Positions 46,203 to 63,144 of a DNA stretch of 64,000 nt are shown here, one piece after another. The translations under genes and the position numbers were made by a program. The notes beneath the pieces are model-generated. The model had not been told where the DNA came from and ran no database searches. It worked only from the letters and a program-made list of their open reading frames with translations. The stretch lies in NCBI GenBank assembly GCA_001897675.1, contig MKUE01000131.1, positions 1 to 64,000 on the forward strand, read 5' to 3'. Positions within the stretch are counted from its first letter, which is position 1; each line of letters starts with the position of its first letter. Origin of the DNA: Thiobacillus sp. 65-1059 (GTDB taxonomy: Bacteria > Pseudomonadota > Gammaproteobacteria > Burkholderiales > Thiobacillaceae).

Positions 46203-46939
46203 TACAAATATCCCTTGAGCCGCGCCTCGATGATGCGCGGATTGTCGCCCTGGGCAATGCCGATGAGGCCGTCGCAGACGATTTCGCGCTCGGCGACCCG
46301 GCGGGCGATGGTGAACTTGATCTTGTTGGCGATCGGCAAAAACACCAGGTTGGCCAGGCCGACGCCGTAGATGGTGGCGACGAAGGCGACCGCGATGCCC
46401 GCACCCAGCTTGCCGGGATCGGACAGGTTTTCCATGACATGGATCAGGCCTATCACCGCGCCCAGGATGCCGAGCGTGGGCGCGTAGCCACCCGCCGCTT
46501 CCCATACCCGCGCGGCCTGCCGCTCGGCCGTCTCGAAGCCGACGATCTGCACGTCGAGCGTGTCGCGCAGCTTGGCCGCATCGGCGCCGTCGATCAGCAA
46601 TTGCAGTCCGGTTTTCTGGAACGGATCGCGCGTCATGTTGAGGTATTTTTCCAGCGCCAGCGCGCCGTCCTGGCGCGCGGTGTGCGACCACTGGACGATG
46701 CGGCGGATCAGCGCCTCGGCCTCCGATGCGGGCGGCCGGAAAGCCCACTTCGCCATGCGCACGCCCTTCATGAACACCGGCAGCGGGTAATGCAGCAGCA
46801 CCGCGGCCAGGGTTCCGATCACCACGATGACGAAAGCGGCCGGCTGCAGGAACAGACCGATCTGCCCGCCTTCCATCGCCTGGCCGCCGAGAATGGCGGC
46901 AACCGCCAGCACCAGCCCGATCAGACTGCCGCGATCCAT
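46202..46939 (-). CDS. motC: flagellar motor protein MotC/MotA-like
   Basis: MDRGSLIGLVLAVAAILGGQAMEGG; GAVIGLIHVMENLSDPGKLGAGIAVAFVATIYGVGLAN. Confidence 0.9.
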   Translation of the reverse strand: MDRGSLIGLVLAVAAILGGQAMEGGQIGLFLQPAAFVIVVIGTLAAVLLHYPLPVFMKGVRMAKWAFRPPASEAEALIRRIVQWSHTARQDGALALEKYLNMTRDPFQKTGLQLLIDGADAAKLRDTLDVQIVGFETAERQAARVWEAAGGYAPTLGILGAVIGLIHVMENLSDPGKLGAGIAVAFVATIYGVGLANLVFLPIANKIKFTIARRVAEREIVCDGLIGIAQGDNPRIIEARLKGYL

Positions 46940-47652
46940 GCGTCTTCCTTCAGCTTGGTGCGCAGCCGCGCGATGGCCTGGCCGTGCAGCTGGCAGATGC
47001 GGGATTCGCTGACCCCGAACACTTCGCTGATCTCGCGCAGGTTGAGTTCCTGTTCGTAATACAGCGACATCAGCAGCTGTTCGCGTTCGGGCAGGTTTTC
47101 GATGCCGGCGATGATGCAGGCGCGCAGGTTGGCGTCGAGCAGCTGCGGCAGCGGCATGCTGGTCTCGTGCGCCGACTGCTTGTCGAGGAAGGAGTCGTCT
47201 TCGTCGGATTCGCCGAAATCCTCGAAATACAGCAGTTGATGGCCGCGCGCGTCGCCCAGCATGGCCTGGTATTCGGCCAGCGGGATTTTCATCGACGCGG
47301 CAATTTCGGTTTCGCTGGGCTGCCGCCCCAGCTGGTGCTGCAAGGCGCCGATGGCCTGTTCGATCTTGCGCATCGACTGCCGCGCGCTGCGCGGCAGCCA
47401 GTCGGACTGGCGCAATTCGTCGATCATCGAGCCACGGATGCGCTGGATGGCGTAGGCCTCGAACTGCGCGCTCTGCGCCTCGTCGTAGCGGCTGACGGCA
47501 TCGAGCAGGCCGATCATACCGGCCTGCACCAGGTCGTCCTCCTCCACACTGGGCGGCAGCCGGCCCATCATGTGATGCGCCAGCCGTTTGACCATGGGCA
47601 TGTATTGCGTCAGCAGGTCGCTCTTTTCGCTTTTGCCTGTTGCGGTGTACAT
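46921..47652 (-). CDS. fliA: flagellar sigma factor FliA (sigma28)
   Basis: MPMVKRLAHHMMGRLPPSVEEDDLVQAGMIGLLDA; C-terminal NLREISEVFGVSESRICQLHGQA. Confidence 0.96.
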   Translation of the reverse strand: MYTATGKSEKSDLLTQYMPMVKRLAHHMMGRLPPSVEEDDLVQAGMIGLLDAVSRYDEAQSAQFEAYAIQRIRGSMIDELRQSDWLPRSARQSMRKIEQAIGALQHQLGRQPSETEIAASMKIPLAEYQAMLGDARGHQLLYFEDFGESDEDDSFLDKQSAHETSMPLPQLLDANLRACIIAGIENLPEREQLLMSLYYEQELNLREISEVFGVSESRICQLHGQAIARLRTKLKEDAWIAAV

Positions 47653-47657
47653 ACCCC

Positions 47658-48536
47658 CTACCTCCTGCAGGCTTCCATCATGCGACTGCCCTGGATCACG
47701 CGCTGCATGAACCCGCCGACGTTGCCCAGGCCGGCCTGCTGCGGCCAGCGCAGCAGGCCATCGGCCAGCTTGCGGAACTGCGAGGTGGACTGGGCGACGG
47801 GAAAGGCGTCCACCACGGAAGTGCGCAGGTGGCCCGCGCGGCTCAAACGCTCGTCGAGCGGGATATAGCCGAGGTAATCGACCGATACCCCCAGATAGCG
47901 CTCGGCGGTTTGGGCGAAATTGCGCGCCACCGCCTGCGCCTGCTCCGGCGATTCCATGCGGTTGAGCAGCAGGCGGAACTGGCGCTTGCCGAAATTGTGC
48001 GCCAGCCGCTTGACCAGGGTATAGCCCTGGGTGATCGCCGTGTTGCCGGGCGGCAGCACCACCATGATTTCGGAGGCGGCAAGCCCCAGCGGCAAGGCAT
48101 CCGGGTCGGTGGCCTCCTCCATGTCCACCAGCACCACGTCGACGCCGCATTGCAGGCGGTTGAAGCTCTGCGCCAGCCATTCCTGATCGCGTTCGGACAG
48201 CTGTCCCAGCCGGTTGAAGCAGCCGCCGATCGGCAGCACCTGCACGTTGTCGGGGCCGTCGAGTATCAGCGCATCCAGGGTGCAGCGTCTTTCGAGCACG
48301 TCCGATACGTCGAAGCGCGGCGTCAGCCCGAGGGCGGCGCAGGCGCCGTGGCCGTGCCGATCCTGGTCGACGATGAGCACGTCGCGCCCCGAGCGGGCCA
48401 ATGCCACTGCCAGGTTGGCGGTGGCGGCGGTCTTGCCCGCCCCTTTCTGCCCCGACATCACGGTAATGACCTGAAACCCGGTCTGCCCCAGCAGGCGGCG
48501 CAGCCCGGCGGCCTGGTCGCTGACGAACTTATCCAA
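47658..48536 (-). CDS. flhG: flagellar MinD-like ATPase FlhG
   Basis: Deviant Walker A SGQKGAGKTAATANLAVALA; between fliA and flhF. Confidence 0.92.
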   Translation of the reverse strand: MDKFVSDQAAGLRRLLGQTGFQVITVMSGQKGAGKTAATANLAVALARSGRDVLIVDQDRHGHGACAALGLTPRFDVSDVLERRCTLDALILDGPDNVQVLPIGGCFNRLGQLSERDQEWLAQSFNRLQCGVDVVLVDMEEATDPDALPLGLAASEIMVVLPPGNTAITQGYTLVKRLAHNFGKRQFRLLLNRMESPEQAQAVARNFAQTAERYLGVSVDYLGYIPLDERLSRAGHLRTSVVDAFPVAQSTSQFRKLADGLLRWPQQAGLGNVGGFMQRVIQGSRMMEACRR

Positions 48537-49800
48537 GGGACACCGCGCTTTCGCGATGCGCCGCCTGGCTGCCGGACAGCGCGAAGGCCAGCTCGCTGTC
48601 GTCCAGCTGCCACGGCGAGGCTTGCGTGCGCGCCTTGAAGGCGCGGTGAATGAGGTACTGGCGATTGGCCAGATGCAGGTCTTCGGGCACGCGCTGGCCG
48701 GTCGCCAGATAGTGCACGCTCAACTGGTGGCGGATCGCGCAGTCGAGCGCCGGGCCGAGGCTTGCCGCCTCGTCGACCTTCGATAGAATGCAGCCGTCCA
48801 GCCCGCGCGTGCGGTAGGCCTGCACCACTTCGTTCAGGGTGTCGCCGTGGCTGGTGGCGTTCAGCAGCAGCAGGCGCTTGATCGGCTTGCCGGCCTGGCA
48901 CAGCATCTCGACCTGCTCGGCAACGGCCTGGTCGCGCTGGCTCATGCCGACGGTATCGATCAGCACCGTGTGCTTGTTGCGCAGTTCGGACAGCGCCAGC
49001 CGCAGGTCGGCCGCATCGCGCACCGCGTGCACGGCGACGCCGAGGATCTTGCCATAGATGCGCAGTTGTTCGTGGCCGCCGATACGGTAGCTGTCGGTGG
49101 TCAGCAGGGCCAGCTTGTCGGCGCCGTGGCGCACCACGAAACGGGCGGCGAGCTTGGCGGTGGTGGTGGTCTTGCCGGCACCGGTGGGGCCCATCAGGGC
49201 GAACACGCCGCCGCCGTCGAGCATGTCGGTTTCGCTCTGCATCACCTGCAGGCGCTTCATCAAGGTGTTTTTCGCCCAGCCCTGCGCCTGCTCCACATCG
49301 CCTTTCGGCATCGTTTCCAGCAGCTCGCGCGCCAGGGTGGCGGAAAAGCCGGCCGCCAGCATGTCGCGCATCACGGCGGCGCCGGCCGGATCGCGCCCCG
49401 GCAGATCGCGCCAGGCCAGATCGGCCAGCTGGCTTTCCAGCCGCATCTGCATCGCCTTGATTTCGCCGCGGATTTCACCCACCACGCTTTGCGCCAGCTG
49501 GGTGCTGTCCGTACTGGGCACGGCGACCCGCTCGACCAGACGGCGTTTGATGGCGACTGCCGGCGCCGGCTCGGTTTCGTCCTGCACGTCCGCTAGCGGT
49601 GCCTTGGCAGGAGCGGCAATTGCCGGCGCCTCCACCACCGGCGGCGCCATCGAAGCGATGTCTTCCGCCGCCAGGGCCAGCACTTCCACCCCGCCGTCTA
49701 CGGTGCGGTTGGAGAGAATGACCGCGTCGGGCCCGAGCGCATCGCGCAGCTGGCGCATGGCTTCACGGGATGTTTTGGCGACGATTCGTTTGACGTTCAT
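48529..49800 (-). CDS. flhF: flagellar SRP-like GTPase FlhF
   Basis: MNVKRIVAKTSREAMRQLRDALGPDAVILSNR; GPTGAGKTTTTAKLAARF. Confidence 0.95.
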   Translation of the reverse strand: MNVKRIVAKTSREAMRQLRDALGPDAVILSNRTVDGGVEVLALAAEDIASMAPPVVEAPAIAAPAKAPLADVQDETEPAPAVAIKRRLVERVAVPSTDSTQLAQSVVGEIRGEIKAMQMRLESQLADLAWRDLPGRDPAGAAVMRDMLAAGFSATLARELLETMPKGDVEQAQGWAKNTLMKRLQVMQSETDMLDGGGVFALMGPTGAGKTTTTAKLAARFVVRHGADKLALLTTDSYRIGGHEQLRIYGKILGVAVHAVRDAADLRLALSELRNKHTVLIDTVGMSQRDQAVAEQVEMLCQAGKPIKRLLLLNATSHGDTLNEVVQAYRTRGLDGCILSKVDEAASLGPALDCAIRHQLSVHYLATGQRVPEDLHLANRQYLIHRAFKARTQASPWQLDDSELAFALSGSQAAHRESAVSLG

Positions 49801-51878
49801 GCTGCTCCTCCTACCAGGGAAGTCACTTTGATCTGCTTGCCTTCGGGCACTTCAGCGTGCGAAAGCACTTTGAGCTGCGGCACGGTGCGCCGCAGGAAAC
49901 GTGCGAGTAGCGGACGCAGCACGGCAGGCGTCAGCAATACCGGGGGATGGCCCAGCGCTTCCTGCCGCTGCGTCGAGGTCTGGGTGCGCTCCAGCAGGGT
50001 GTCGGCCAGGCCCGGCTCCATGCCGGCGGCATCGTGCCCCGCCTGCAGCGTCTGCAGCAGCAGCCGCTCGAGGCCATGGTCCAGCGCGATCACCGGCAGT
50101 TCGCTGGCCGAGCCGTAAATCTGCTGCACGATCGAGCGCCCCAGCGCCACCCGCACCAGGGCGGTGAGTTCGTGCGGATCCTGCACCCGTGCGGCGTGTT
50201 CCAGCAGGGTGTCGATGATGCTGCGCATGTCGCGGATCGCCACGCCTTCGGTGAGCAGGGTCTGCAGCACTTTCTGCACCGTGGAGAGCGGCAGCATTTT
50301 CGGCACCAGGTCTTCCACCAGCTTGGGCGCGCTCTTTCCCAGGTGATCGAGCAGCGCCTGCGTTTCCTGCCGCCCCAGCAGTTCGGCGGCATGCTGGGTC
50401 ACCAGATGATTCAGGTGGGTGGCGACCACGGTGCCGGGGTCGACCACGGTGTAGCCCATCGCCTGCGCCTGCTCGCGCAGGCCGGATTCGATCCACACCG
50501 CCGGCAGATCGAAGGCGGGATCGCGCGTGGCGATGCCCGGCAGGCTGGCGGTGATGTTGCCCGGGTCGATGGCGAGGAACAGCCCGGTGCGCACTTCGCC
50601 GGAACCGATCTCGACGCCTTTCAGGGTGATGCGGTAGCTGTTCGGATTGATTTCCAGGTTGTCGCGGATATGCACGGCAGGCGGCAGAAAACCGATCTCC
50701 CTGGCGAATTTCTTGCGGATACCCTTGATGCGGCGCACCAGCTCGCCGTCGGTGGCGCTGTCCACCAGCGGGATCAGGCGATAGCCCACTTCCAGGCCCA
50801 GGGTGTCGATGGGCGCGACGTCTTCCCAGCTGGCTTCCTGGCTTTCGACCGCGGCGGCGGGCGCGGCCTGCGCCTCCGCCGGCGCTTCCTGCTGTTGCTG
50901 CTTGCCGTTCCGGTAGGCCAGCCAGACCAGGCCGCCCGCCAGCAGCAGGAAGGCAAAGTTCGGCATACCCGGAATCATGCCCATCAGGCCGAGAATCGCG
51001 GCGGTGATATAGAGCGCCTGCCGCTTGCTGAAAACGTTGGACAGCATCTGGCCGGCGATGTCTTCCTCGGTGCTGACGCGGCTGACGATGATGCCGGCGG
51101 CGATCGAGATGACCAGCGCCGGAATCTGCGCCACCAGGCCGTCGCCGATCGCCAGCAGGGTGTAGTTGCTGGCGGCGTCGGCCATCGCCATATCGTGCTG
51201 CATCACGCCGATGATGAGGCCGCCGACGACGTTGATGATCAGGATCAGGATTCCGGCGATGGCGTCGCCGCGCACGAATTTAGAGGCGCCGTCCATCGAG
51301 CCGTAGAAGTCGGCTTCCTGGGCGATTTCGGCACGGCGCCGGCGCGCCTCGTTTTCGTCGATAAGGCCGGCGTTGAGGTCGGCGTCGATTGCCATCTGCT
51401 TGCCCGGCATCGCGTCGAGGGTGAAGCGCGCGCTGACCTCGGCGATGCGGCCGGCGCCCTTGGTGATGACGATGAAGTTGATCACCACCAGGATGACGAA
51501 CACGATGATGCCGACCGTGTAATTGCCGCCGACCAGGAAATGGCCGAAGGCTTCGATCACCTTGCCCGCAGCGTCCGGTCCGGTATGGCCATCCAGCAGC
51601 ACCACGCGGGTGGACGCGACGTTGAGCGACAGCCGCAGCAGCGTGGACAGCAGCAGCACCGTGGGGAAGGCGGCGAATTCGAGCGCCTTCTTGGTCGATA
51701 GGCTGACCAAAAGCACCATGATGGAAAGCGCGATGTTGAAGGTGAACAGCATGTCCAGCGCAAACGGCGGCAGCGGCAGCACCAGCATCGCCAGAATGAG
51801 GACGATGAAAATCGGTGCCGCCATCGCGCGCGCATTGGCCGGGTTGAAGATATTCGAAAGACTCAGGGTGCCGTTCAT
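49797..51878 (-). CDS. flhA: flagellar biosynthesis protein FlhA
   Basis: PTVLLLSTLLRLSLNVASTRVVLLDGH; ITKGAGRIAEVSARFTLDAMPGKQMAIDADLNAG. Confidence 0.97.
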   Translation of the reverse strand: MNGTLSLSNIFNPANARAMAAPIFIVLILAMLVLPLPPFALDMLFTFNIALSIMVLLVSLSTKKALEFAAFPTVLLLSTLLRLSLNVASTRVVLLDGHTGPDAAGKVIEAFGHFLVGGNYTVGIIVFVILVVINFIVITKGAGRIAEVSARFTLDAMPGKQMAIDADLNAGLIDENEARRRRAEIAQEADFYGSMDGASKFVRGDAIAGILILIINVVGGLIIGVMQHDMAMADAASNYTLLAIGDGLVAQIPALVISIAAGIIVSRVSTEEDIAGQMLSNVFSKRQALYITAAILGLMGMIPGMPNFAFLLLAGGLVWLAYRNGKQQQQEAPAEAQAAPAAAVESQEASWEDVAPIDTLGLEVGYRLIPLVDSATDGELVRRIKGIRKKFAREIGFLPPAVHIRDNLEINPNSYRITLKGVEIGSGEVRTGLFLAIDPGNITASLPGIATRDPAFDLPAVWIESGLREQAQAMGYTVVDPGTVVATHLNHLVTQHAAELLGRQETQALLDHLGKSAPKLVEDLVPKMLPLSTVQKVLQTLLTEGVAIRDMRSIIDTLLEHAARVQDPHELTALVRVALGRSIVQQIYGSASELPVIALDHGLERLLLQTLQAGHDAAGMEPGLADTLLERTQTSTQRQEALGHPPVLLTPAVLRPLLARFLRRTVPQLKVLSHAEVPEGKQIKVTSLVGGAA

Positions 51879-62860: not shown

Positions 62861-63045
62861 TGACGCTCCGGTCGTTCAGACGAATCGCCGGTATGGTGCG
62901 GGATTCCGCTGCATTCGGCAAGTTCGCCGGGCGGGGGCTAAAGAAAAAACGACCGACGCCGTAATTCAGAATCACTACCTCAGCTTGAAGCCATATGCCG
63001 CTGGCGCAAGCCGTTTGTTGGCCTATATTCAGACTGTGTAGAACT

Positions 63046-63123
63046 CCTGGTAAAGGGTTTATCCCTAGGCGCTCCTCCTCCTGCCACACCAGGTTTTTTT
63101 GCGGCGCCTCGGGCGCCGCTTTT
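63046..63123 (+). ncRNA. candidate small RNA with CU-rich anti-Shine-Dalgarno loop and terminator
   Basis: CCTGGT...ACCAGG stem followed by T7, internal AGGG-TTTAT-CCCT hairpin, GCTCCTCCTCCTGCC segment, then GCGGCGCC-TCG-GGCGCCGC-TTTTGTTTT; no ORF. Confidence 0.45.
63101..63123 (+). terminator. intrinsic terminator, plus-strand orientation
   Basis: GCGGCGCC-TCG-GGCGCCGC followed by TTTTGTTTT. Confidence 0.7.
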
Positions 63124-63144
63124 GTTTTACGGCTCCGGATCGTG

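Follow-up and report, generated by a model that had tools for sequence, protein, structure and literature searches.

In Escherichia coli, the small RNAs (sRNAs) UhpU, MotR, FliX and FlgO depend on sigma28 for their synthesis (PMC10578931). Campylobacter jejuni also makes sRNAs with its flagellar sigma factors: CjNC1 and CjNC4 (PMC4626219), and two others, FlmR (CJnc170; 47 nt), which depends on FliA, and FlmE (CJnc230; 98 nt), which depends on RpoN and carries a putative anti-Shine-Dalgarno segment, CCUU (PMC11187230). In the alphaproteobacteria, sRNAs of the alpha-r14 family, such as NfeR1 and SmelA075, display anti-Shine-Dalgarno hairpin loops, CCUCCUCCC, and NfeR1 pairs with ribosome binding sites and so represses translation (PMC3927594, PMC10746234).

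The Thiobacillus RNA that we discuss here would act as a combination of the two: a flagellar-sigma sRNA and an anti-Shine-Dalgarno-loop sRNA. With the E. coli set it would share late flagellar transcription and post-transcriptional control, but those RNAs derive from the untranslated regions of protein genes, whereas this one is free-standing, with a promoter and terminator of its own and an anti-Shine-Dalgarno loop. The Campylobacter RNAs, compared here by description and not by sequence, resemble it in their flagellar sigma factor origin and, for CJnc230, in the putative anti-Shine-Dalgarno CCUU; they are shorter, however, and the CCUU lies between stem-loops rather than in a hairpin loop. 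Members of the alpha-r14 family have three hairpins, each with CCUCCUCCC, and are controlled by LsrB and NtrC; the Thiobacillus RNA has a single CU loop, is controlled, to judge from its promoter motif, by FliA, and shows neither an Rfam match nor the three CCUCCUCCC hairpins that would place it in that family. Rfam yielded no match at the gathering score in the window—the whole 64,000-nt stretch of Thiobacillus sp. 65-1059 DNA analyzed—and none at E≤1 at the locus itself (L002), and literature searches found no paper on this RNA. The sRNA gene is undescribed and has recognizable relatives in two neighboring genera.

The locus is flanked by a coiled-coil gene linked to clpA and by polysaccharide genes, in the window as well as in T. 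denitrificans (L020). An earlier, sequence-only reading had proposed a plus-strand sRNA here with a CU-rich anti-Shine-Dalgarno loop, and all of the sequence features it listed are present in the places it gave for them. It had also remarked on a plus-strand terminator lacking a protein gene to terminate, and this we confirm: no plausible plus-strand protein gene ends at the terminator. The terminator (63101–63124, plus strand) has the form GCGGCGCC-TCG-GGCGCCGC followed by TTTTG, the stem (63101–63119) comprising eight G/C pairs and the tail being T-rich. Upstream of it, and separated from it by a run of seven Ts (63094–63100), is a branched domain (63046–63093, plus strand) closed by an outer stem, CCUGGU/ACCAGG (CCTGGT at 63046–63051 and ACCAGG at 63088–63093 in the DNA). 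Two hairpins are enclosed: first AGGG-TTTAT-CCCT, and then GGC-GCUCCUCCUCCU-GCC (63068–63085, plus strand; GGC-GCTCCTCCTCCT-GCC as DNA), which presents the anti-Shine-Dalgarno sequence in its loop. The minimum-free-energy fold of the element coincides with this structure. Against dinucleotide shuffles of its own sequence the fold scores z = −1.8 to −2.5, values that are by themselves weak evidence, and it is conservation that decides the case.

The RNA is predicted to be longer than at first thought. The sequence-only reading gave it 95 nt, at 63031–63125, with TATATT (63024–63029) and TAGAAC (63039–63044) as candidate −10 elements. TATATT is absent from many homologs, TAGAAC is not conserved as a promoter element, and a general sigma70 scan detects a promoter at neither; the 5′ end had been misplaced. 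About 80 nt upstream of the earlier start is the motif TAAAG-N14-GCCG, part of a promoter of the FliA (sigma28) type, TAAAGAAA-N11-GCCGTAAT (62939–62965, plus strand). FliA promoters have the layout TAAAGTTT-N11-GCCGATAA. Placing the 5′ end 6–10 nt downstream of the −10 element gives a predicted sRNA of about 150 nt at 62972–63124 on the plus strand, an extent that also draws on the alignment, the covariance model and folding from the predicted start. The added sequence would form a further, 5′ hairpin (62975–63041, plus strand), closed by CUAC (62975–62978) with GUAG (63038–63041). When transcripts are folded from the inferred start this hairpin is predicted in most of them, its apical part differing between species, and in most species it is followed by a single-stranded UUUCCCUUGUAGAU.

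The promoter is a conserved one. Nearly all homologs have TAAAG or TCAAG, 14 nt, and GCCG or a near variant, some 95–150 nt upstream of the loop, and the conserved core can be written TMAAG-N14-NNCG. In locus L025 the promoter reads TAAAGTTT-N11-GCCGATAC, and in L022 it reads TCAAGAAA-N11-GCCGATAA; T. denitrificans has one extra base in the spacer, genome G006 has a weakened promoter, and in genome G035, where no flagellin is detectable, the promoter has decayed and the RNA core is intact. For most of the sequences taken singly, a simple match count against shuffles does not reach significance, and so the case for the promoter rests on conservation together with an independently trained weight matrix. 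It was trained on the promoters of flgM and cheY in the genus, together with the E. coli consensus, and all sRNA promoters were left out of it; the identities of FlgM and CheY—as well as FlhD, FliA and the motor genes—were confirmed by family models. The site is among the top five of approximately 128,000 positions in the window, the first and second ranks going to sites upstream of flhD and motA. The sRNA promoter is well supported by comparison and, to judge from its motif, appears to be read by FliA; this flagellar link is absent from the sequence-only reading. A sigma54 promoter at TGGCGC, picked out by eye, was rejected for its wrong spacing.

Other genes carry promoters of this kind. The same motif class occurs in the genus upstream of cheY, flgM and a gene resembling pilG; in three genomes (L129, L130, L131) the site ahead of this PilG-like response regulator gene is TAAAGAAG-N11-GCCGTAAT, which suggests that the regulon of FliA extends to twitching-motility genes. 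A FliA-like site, TAAAGATT-N11-GCCGTCAA, is also seen at a gene resembling fimV (L141, L142). At locus L138 (G000:C135:69400-71370), a c-di-GMP-I riboswitch (RF03167) comes directly after a FliA-like promoter, TCAAGTTAGCCCCTGACCGGCCGATAA, and upstream of a gene for a 558-aa protein; this one leader may combine control by the flagellar sigma factor with control by c-di-GMP.

The window has a fliA gene (46921–47652, minus strand; NCBIfam NF005413 and TIGR02479, both over cut-off), whose product is the sigma factor that should recognize the promoter. The gene belongs to a minus-strand set of flagellar genes at 45.4–57 kb—flhD, flhC, motA, motB, flhB, flhA, flhF, fliA, a second motA-like gene and motD—after which come the polysaccharide genes and epsD. 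It is improbable, in our view, that some sigma factor other than this flagellar FliA, or a second FliA-like paralog, reads the promoter. Two strong FliA-type sigma genes do occur in many Thiobacillus genomes, and the flagellin promoters of the genus, TTAACTTT-N11-GACGATTC, are somewhat unlike the sRNA motif. For the window genome, however, a single strong FliA gene is listed over the cut-off, the one in the flhF–motCD cluster, and the flgM and cheY promoters belong to the same motif class as that of the sRNA. As a separate observation, most Thiobacillus genomes have two strong sigma genes of the FliA/WhiG type, one of them near the sRNA locus.

Within Thiobacillus the element is widespread. 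A DNA search of relatives returned strong matches across many Thiobacillus genomes and no convincing match outside the genus; a covariance model, the kind of search that the sequence-only reading had called for, matches 37 of 56 Thiobacillus genomes at E≤4e-8, a few of the copies being decayed; and a scan for the pattern in genomes with names picked up Thiobacillus thioparus DSM 505, several Thiobacillus sp. and Hydrogenophilales metagenome-assembled genomes (MAGs). No plasmid homologs were found. Two further records match, as curiosities: L231, on a contig from a MAG recorded as Rhizobium sp., has the Thiobacillus locus and is probably mislabeled, and L236, titled Flavonifractor, likewise matches the loop pattern. 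The remaining 19 genomes are without the RNA, and at least 12 of these have flagellin genes, though absences are uncertain since many of the genomes are draft MAGs. In several such genomes with a comparable region, the intergenic stretch beside the coiled-coil gene contains no such element. Co-occurrence of the RNA with flagellin is imperfect, and fliA, matched in all 56 genomes, is no guide either way.

In an alignment of 31 homologs, from which loop, linkers and indels were judged, the loop CUCCUCCUCC(U/A) is nearly invariant and GGCGCTCCTCCTCCTGCC is almost unchanging, while the hairpin loop and the linkers vary. Differences in the lengths of the linkers, the hairpin loop and the U-run are not multiples of three, which makes a coding role for the segment unlikely. 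In the hairpin ahead of the CU loop, the stem of a G-run and a C-run persists and the loop varies. The CU-rich segment, unpaired and complementary to GGAGG, is kept better than its flanks and is the best-kept part of the element in the genus. In three of the 37 matching genomes (G001, G015, G037) the loop is visibly degraded or diverged; G017 has the variant CCCCCCCTCC. Compensatory covariation, too, is to be seen, in the outer stem, where two groups of Thiobacillus sequences have U-A in place of C-G as the third pair, and in the terminator, where the basal pair changes from G-C to A-U.

It is very improbable that the conserved segment serves epsD or the coiled-coil gene as a leader or attenuator read on the minus strand, despite both of its neighbors in the window lying on the minus strand and the occurrence of GGAGGAGGAG in its reverse complement: U-rich tails follow the stems on the plus strand only, the conserved sigma28 promoter runs along that same strand, the next gene on the minus strand in T. 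denitrificans is over 300 nt off and is not epsD, and the epsD/coiled-coil arrangement persists in several genomes that lack the element. Nor, given that promoter, outer stem and loop are kept together and that compensatory changes extend over three genera, is it credible, except as a very long shot, that we are looking at an orphan terminator past the coiled-coil gene and a CU tract that arose by chance; the terminator stem is the commonest element, admittedly, and the weak matches of the covariance model elsewhere in the order proved on inspection to be mostly terminators of the same type. (Among other betaproteobacterial families, L049, L050 and L061 have CTCCTCCTCC-like tracts before terminators, that of L050 downstream of the end of an apparent ammonium transporter gene; these may be independent anti-Shine-Dalgarno RNAs.) The proposal of a plus-strand sRNA with an anti-Shine-Dalgarno CU loop is well supported by conservation, by the compensatory changes in its stems and by its intrinsic terminator. 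Comparison shows the gene, its structure and terminator and, by motif, its promoter type.

Beyond Thiobacillus, a family-wide search gave weak, consistent matches in genera g46 and g162. In g46 the homologs sit against clpA at its 3′ end and on the other strand, in every case where the neighborhood is visible, and have perfect or near-perfect FliA promoters, an outer stem of other sequence and a terminator; in g162 the RNA is divergent from a gene whose start resembles rmlB. The g46 promoters are TAAAGTTC-N11-GCCGATAA at L251 and TAAAGTTT-N11-GCCGATAA at L252, and at both, as at L025, the sigma28 octamers are perfect or nearly so. Across the three genera, five of the six outer-stem pairs have compensatory changes and the sixth is often unpaired, the arms of the g46 and g162 relatives having been taken out by hand. 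CUCCUCC occurs in the loop region of two g46 genomes and of all three matching g162 genomes. The remaining g46 genomes do not have it, and several g46 homologs keep the promoter, the folding plan and the terminator with no CU loop. The expectation that relatives conserve the CU segment holds, then, within the genus, a few decayed copies excepted, and fails for some g46 homologs, in which the loop cannot be essential. Promoter, folding plan and terminator appear either to be older than the present loop, or to have outlived its loss in part of g46.

These loopless homologs invite another interpretation of the RNA: that it is FliA-dependent but does not use anti-Shine-Dalgarno pairing, instead titrating an RNA-binding protein or another sRNA, for example, with the CU loop a protein-binding site. 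In most species UUUCCCUUGUAGAU constitutes a second conserved single-stranded motif, and comparison singles out no target. We consider this unlikely, because within the genus it is the CU loop that is best kept, because CUCCUCC appears again in g162 and in two g46 genomes, and because the loop is the exact complement of strong Shine-Dalgarno sequences.

The reading that we prefer, and think probably correct, is that the locus encodes a FliA-dependent sRNA of about 150 nt, belonging to the late flagellar regulon, that represses mRNAs by pairing of its CU loop with their Shine-Dalgarno sequences. The course of events—its transcription, length, use of Hfq, pairing and direction of regulation are all what we infer from sequence—would be this. 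FliA-RNA polymerase would initiate at the 62939–62965 promoter, and the RNA would end at the terminator, 63101–63124. It would fold, in order, into the variable 5′ hairpin, the single-stranded UUUCCCUUGUAGAU (in most species), the branched domain, a U-rich stretch and the terminator. The second hairpin of the branched domain would display CUCCUCCUCCU, and this loop, like the 3′ end of 16S rRNA, would most likely pair with the G-A-rich Shine-Dalgarno sequences of target mRNAs, probably with the assistance of Hfq, which the genome encodes. Ribosome binding would be blocked, and the flagellar stage would in this way be tied to the translation of other genes.

On paper, the loop pairs in the window with flhF (48529–49800, minus strand; −26.2 kcal/mol), whose Shine-Dalgarno sequence, AGGAGGAG, is complementary to it, and with fliA (−25.6) and flhC (−24.0), all of which fall within the 25 best start regions, a list that also includes many false starts. 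A family-restricted negative feedback, in which the FliA-made RNA damps translation of flhF, fliA and flhC, and in which some lineages have lost the loop and kept the FliA promoter, is conceivable but unlikely. Genomes that lack the RNA have equally strong complementarity at flhF, constrained there by the end of flhA, and the fliA leader pairs no differently whether a genome has the RNA or lacks it. A search of three genomes for AGGAGGAG plus a start found, in each of them, flhF and an exported SCP2-like protein of 169 aa, and the pattern counts were not above those of a reversed control pattern. Since flhF and fliA pair alike with or without the RNA, and the counts do not exceed the control, no target is claimed. 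The exported protein (L162, L176, L190), whose start, AGGAGGAGGTACC(C)ATG, is conserved in three genomes, is a possible target. The flhA–flhF junction (49798–49830 in the window, minus strand) is TTCCCTTGTAGGAGGAGCAGCATG in G043, G016 and others, and has TTCCCTTGTAG in common with the conserved single-stranded motif of the sRNA; this may be chance.

If the preferred reading is true, a conserved, free-standing anti-Shine-Dalgarno sRNA made by a flagellar sigma factor exists in sulfur-oxidizing betaproteobacteria, which would suggest that flagellar control by sRNAs arose repeatedly. Species that have the RNA, species that lack it and, in g46, those with the promoter but not the loop amount to a natural experiment for finding targets. 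Among cultured Thiobacillus, T. denitrificans and T. thioparus both carry the RNA, and in them it is open to direct testing.
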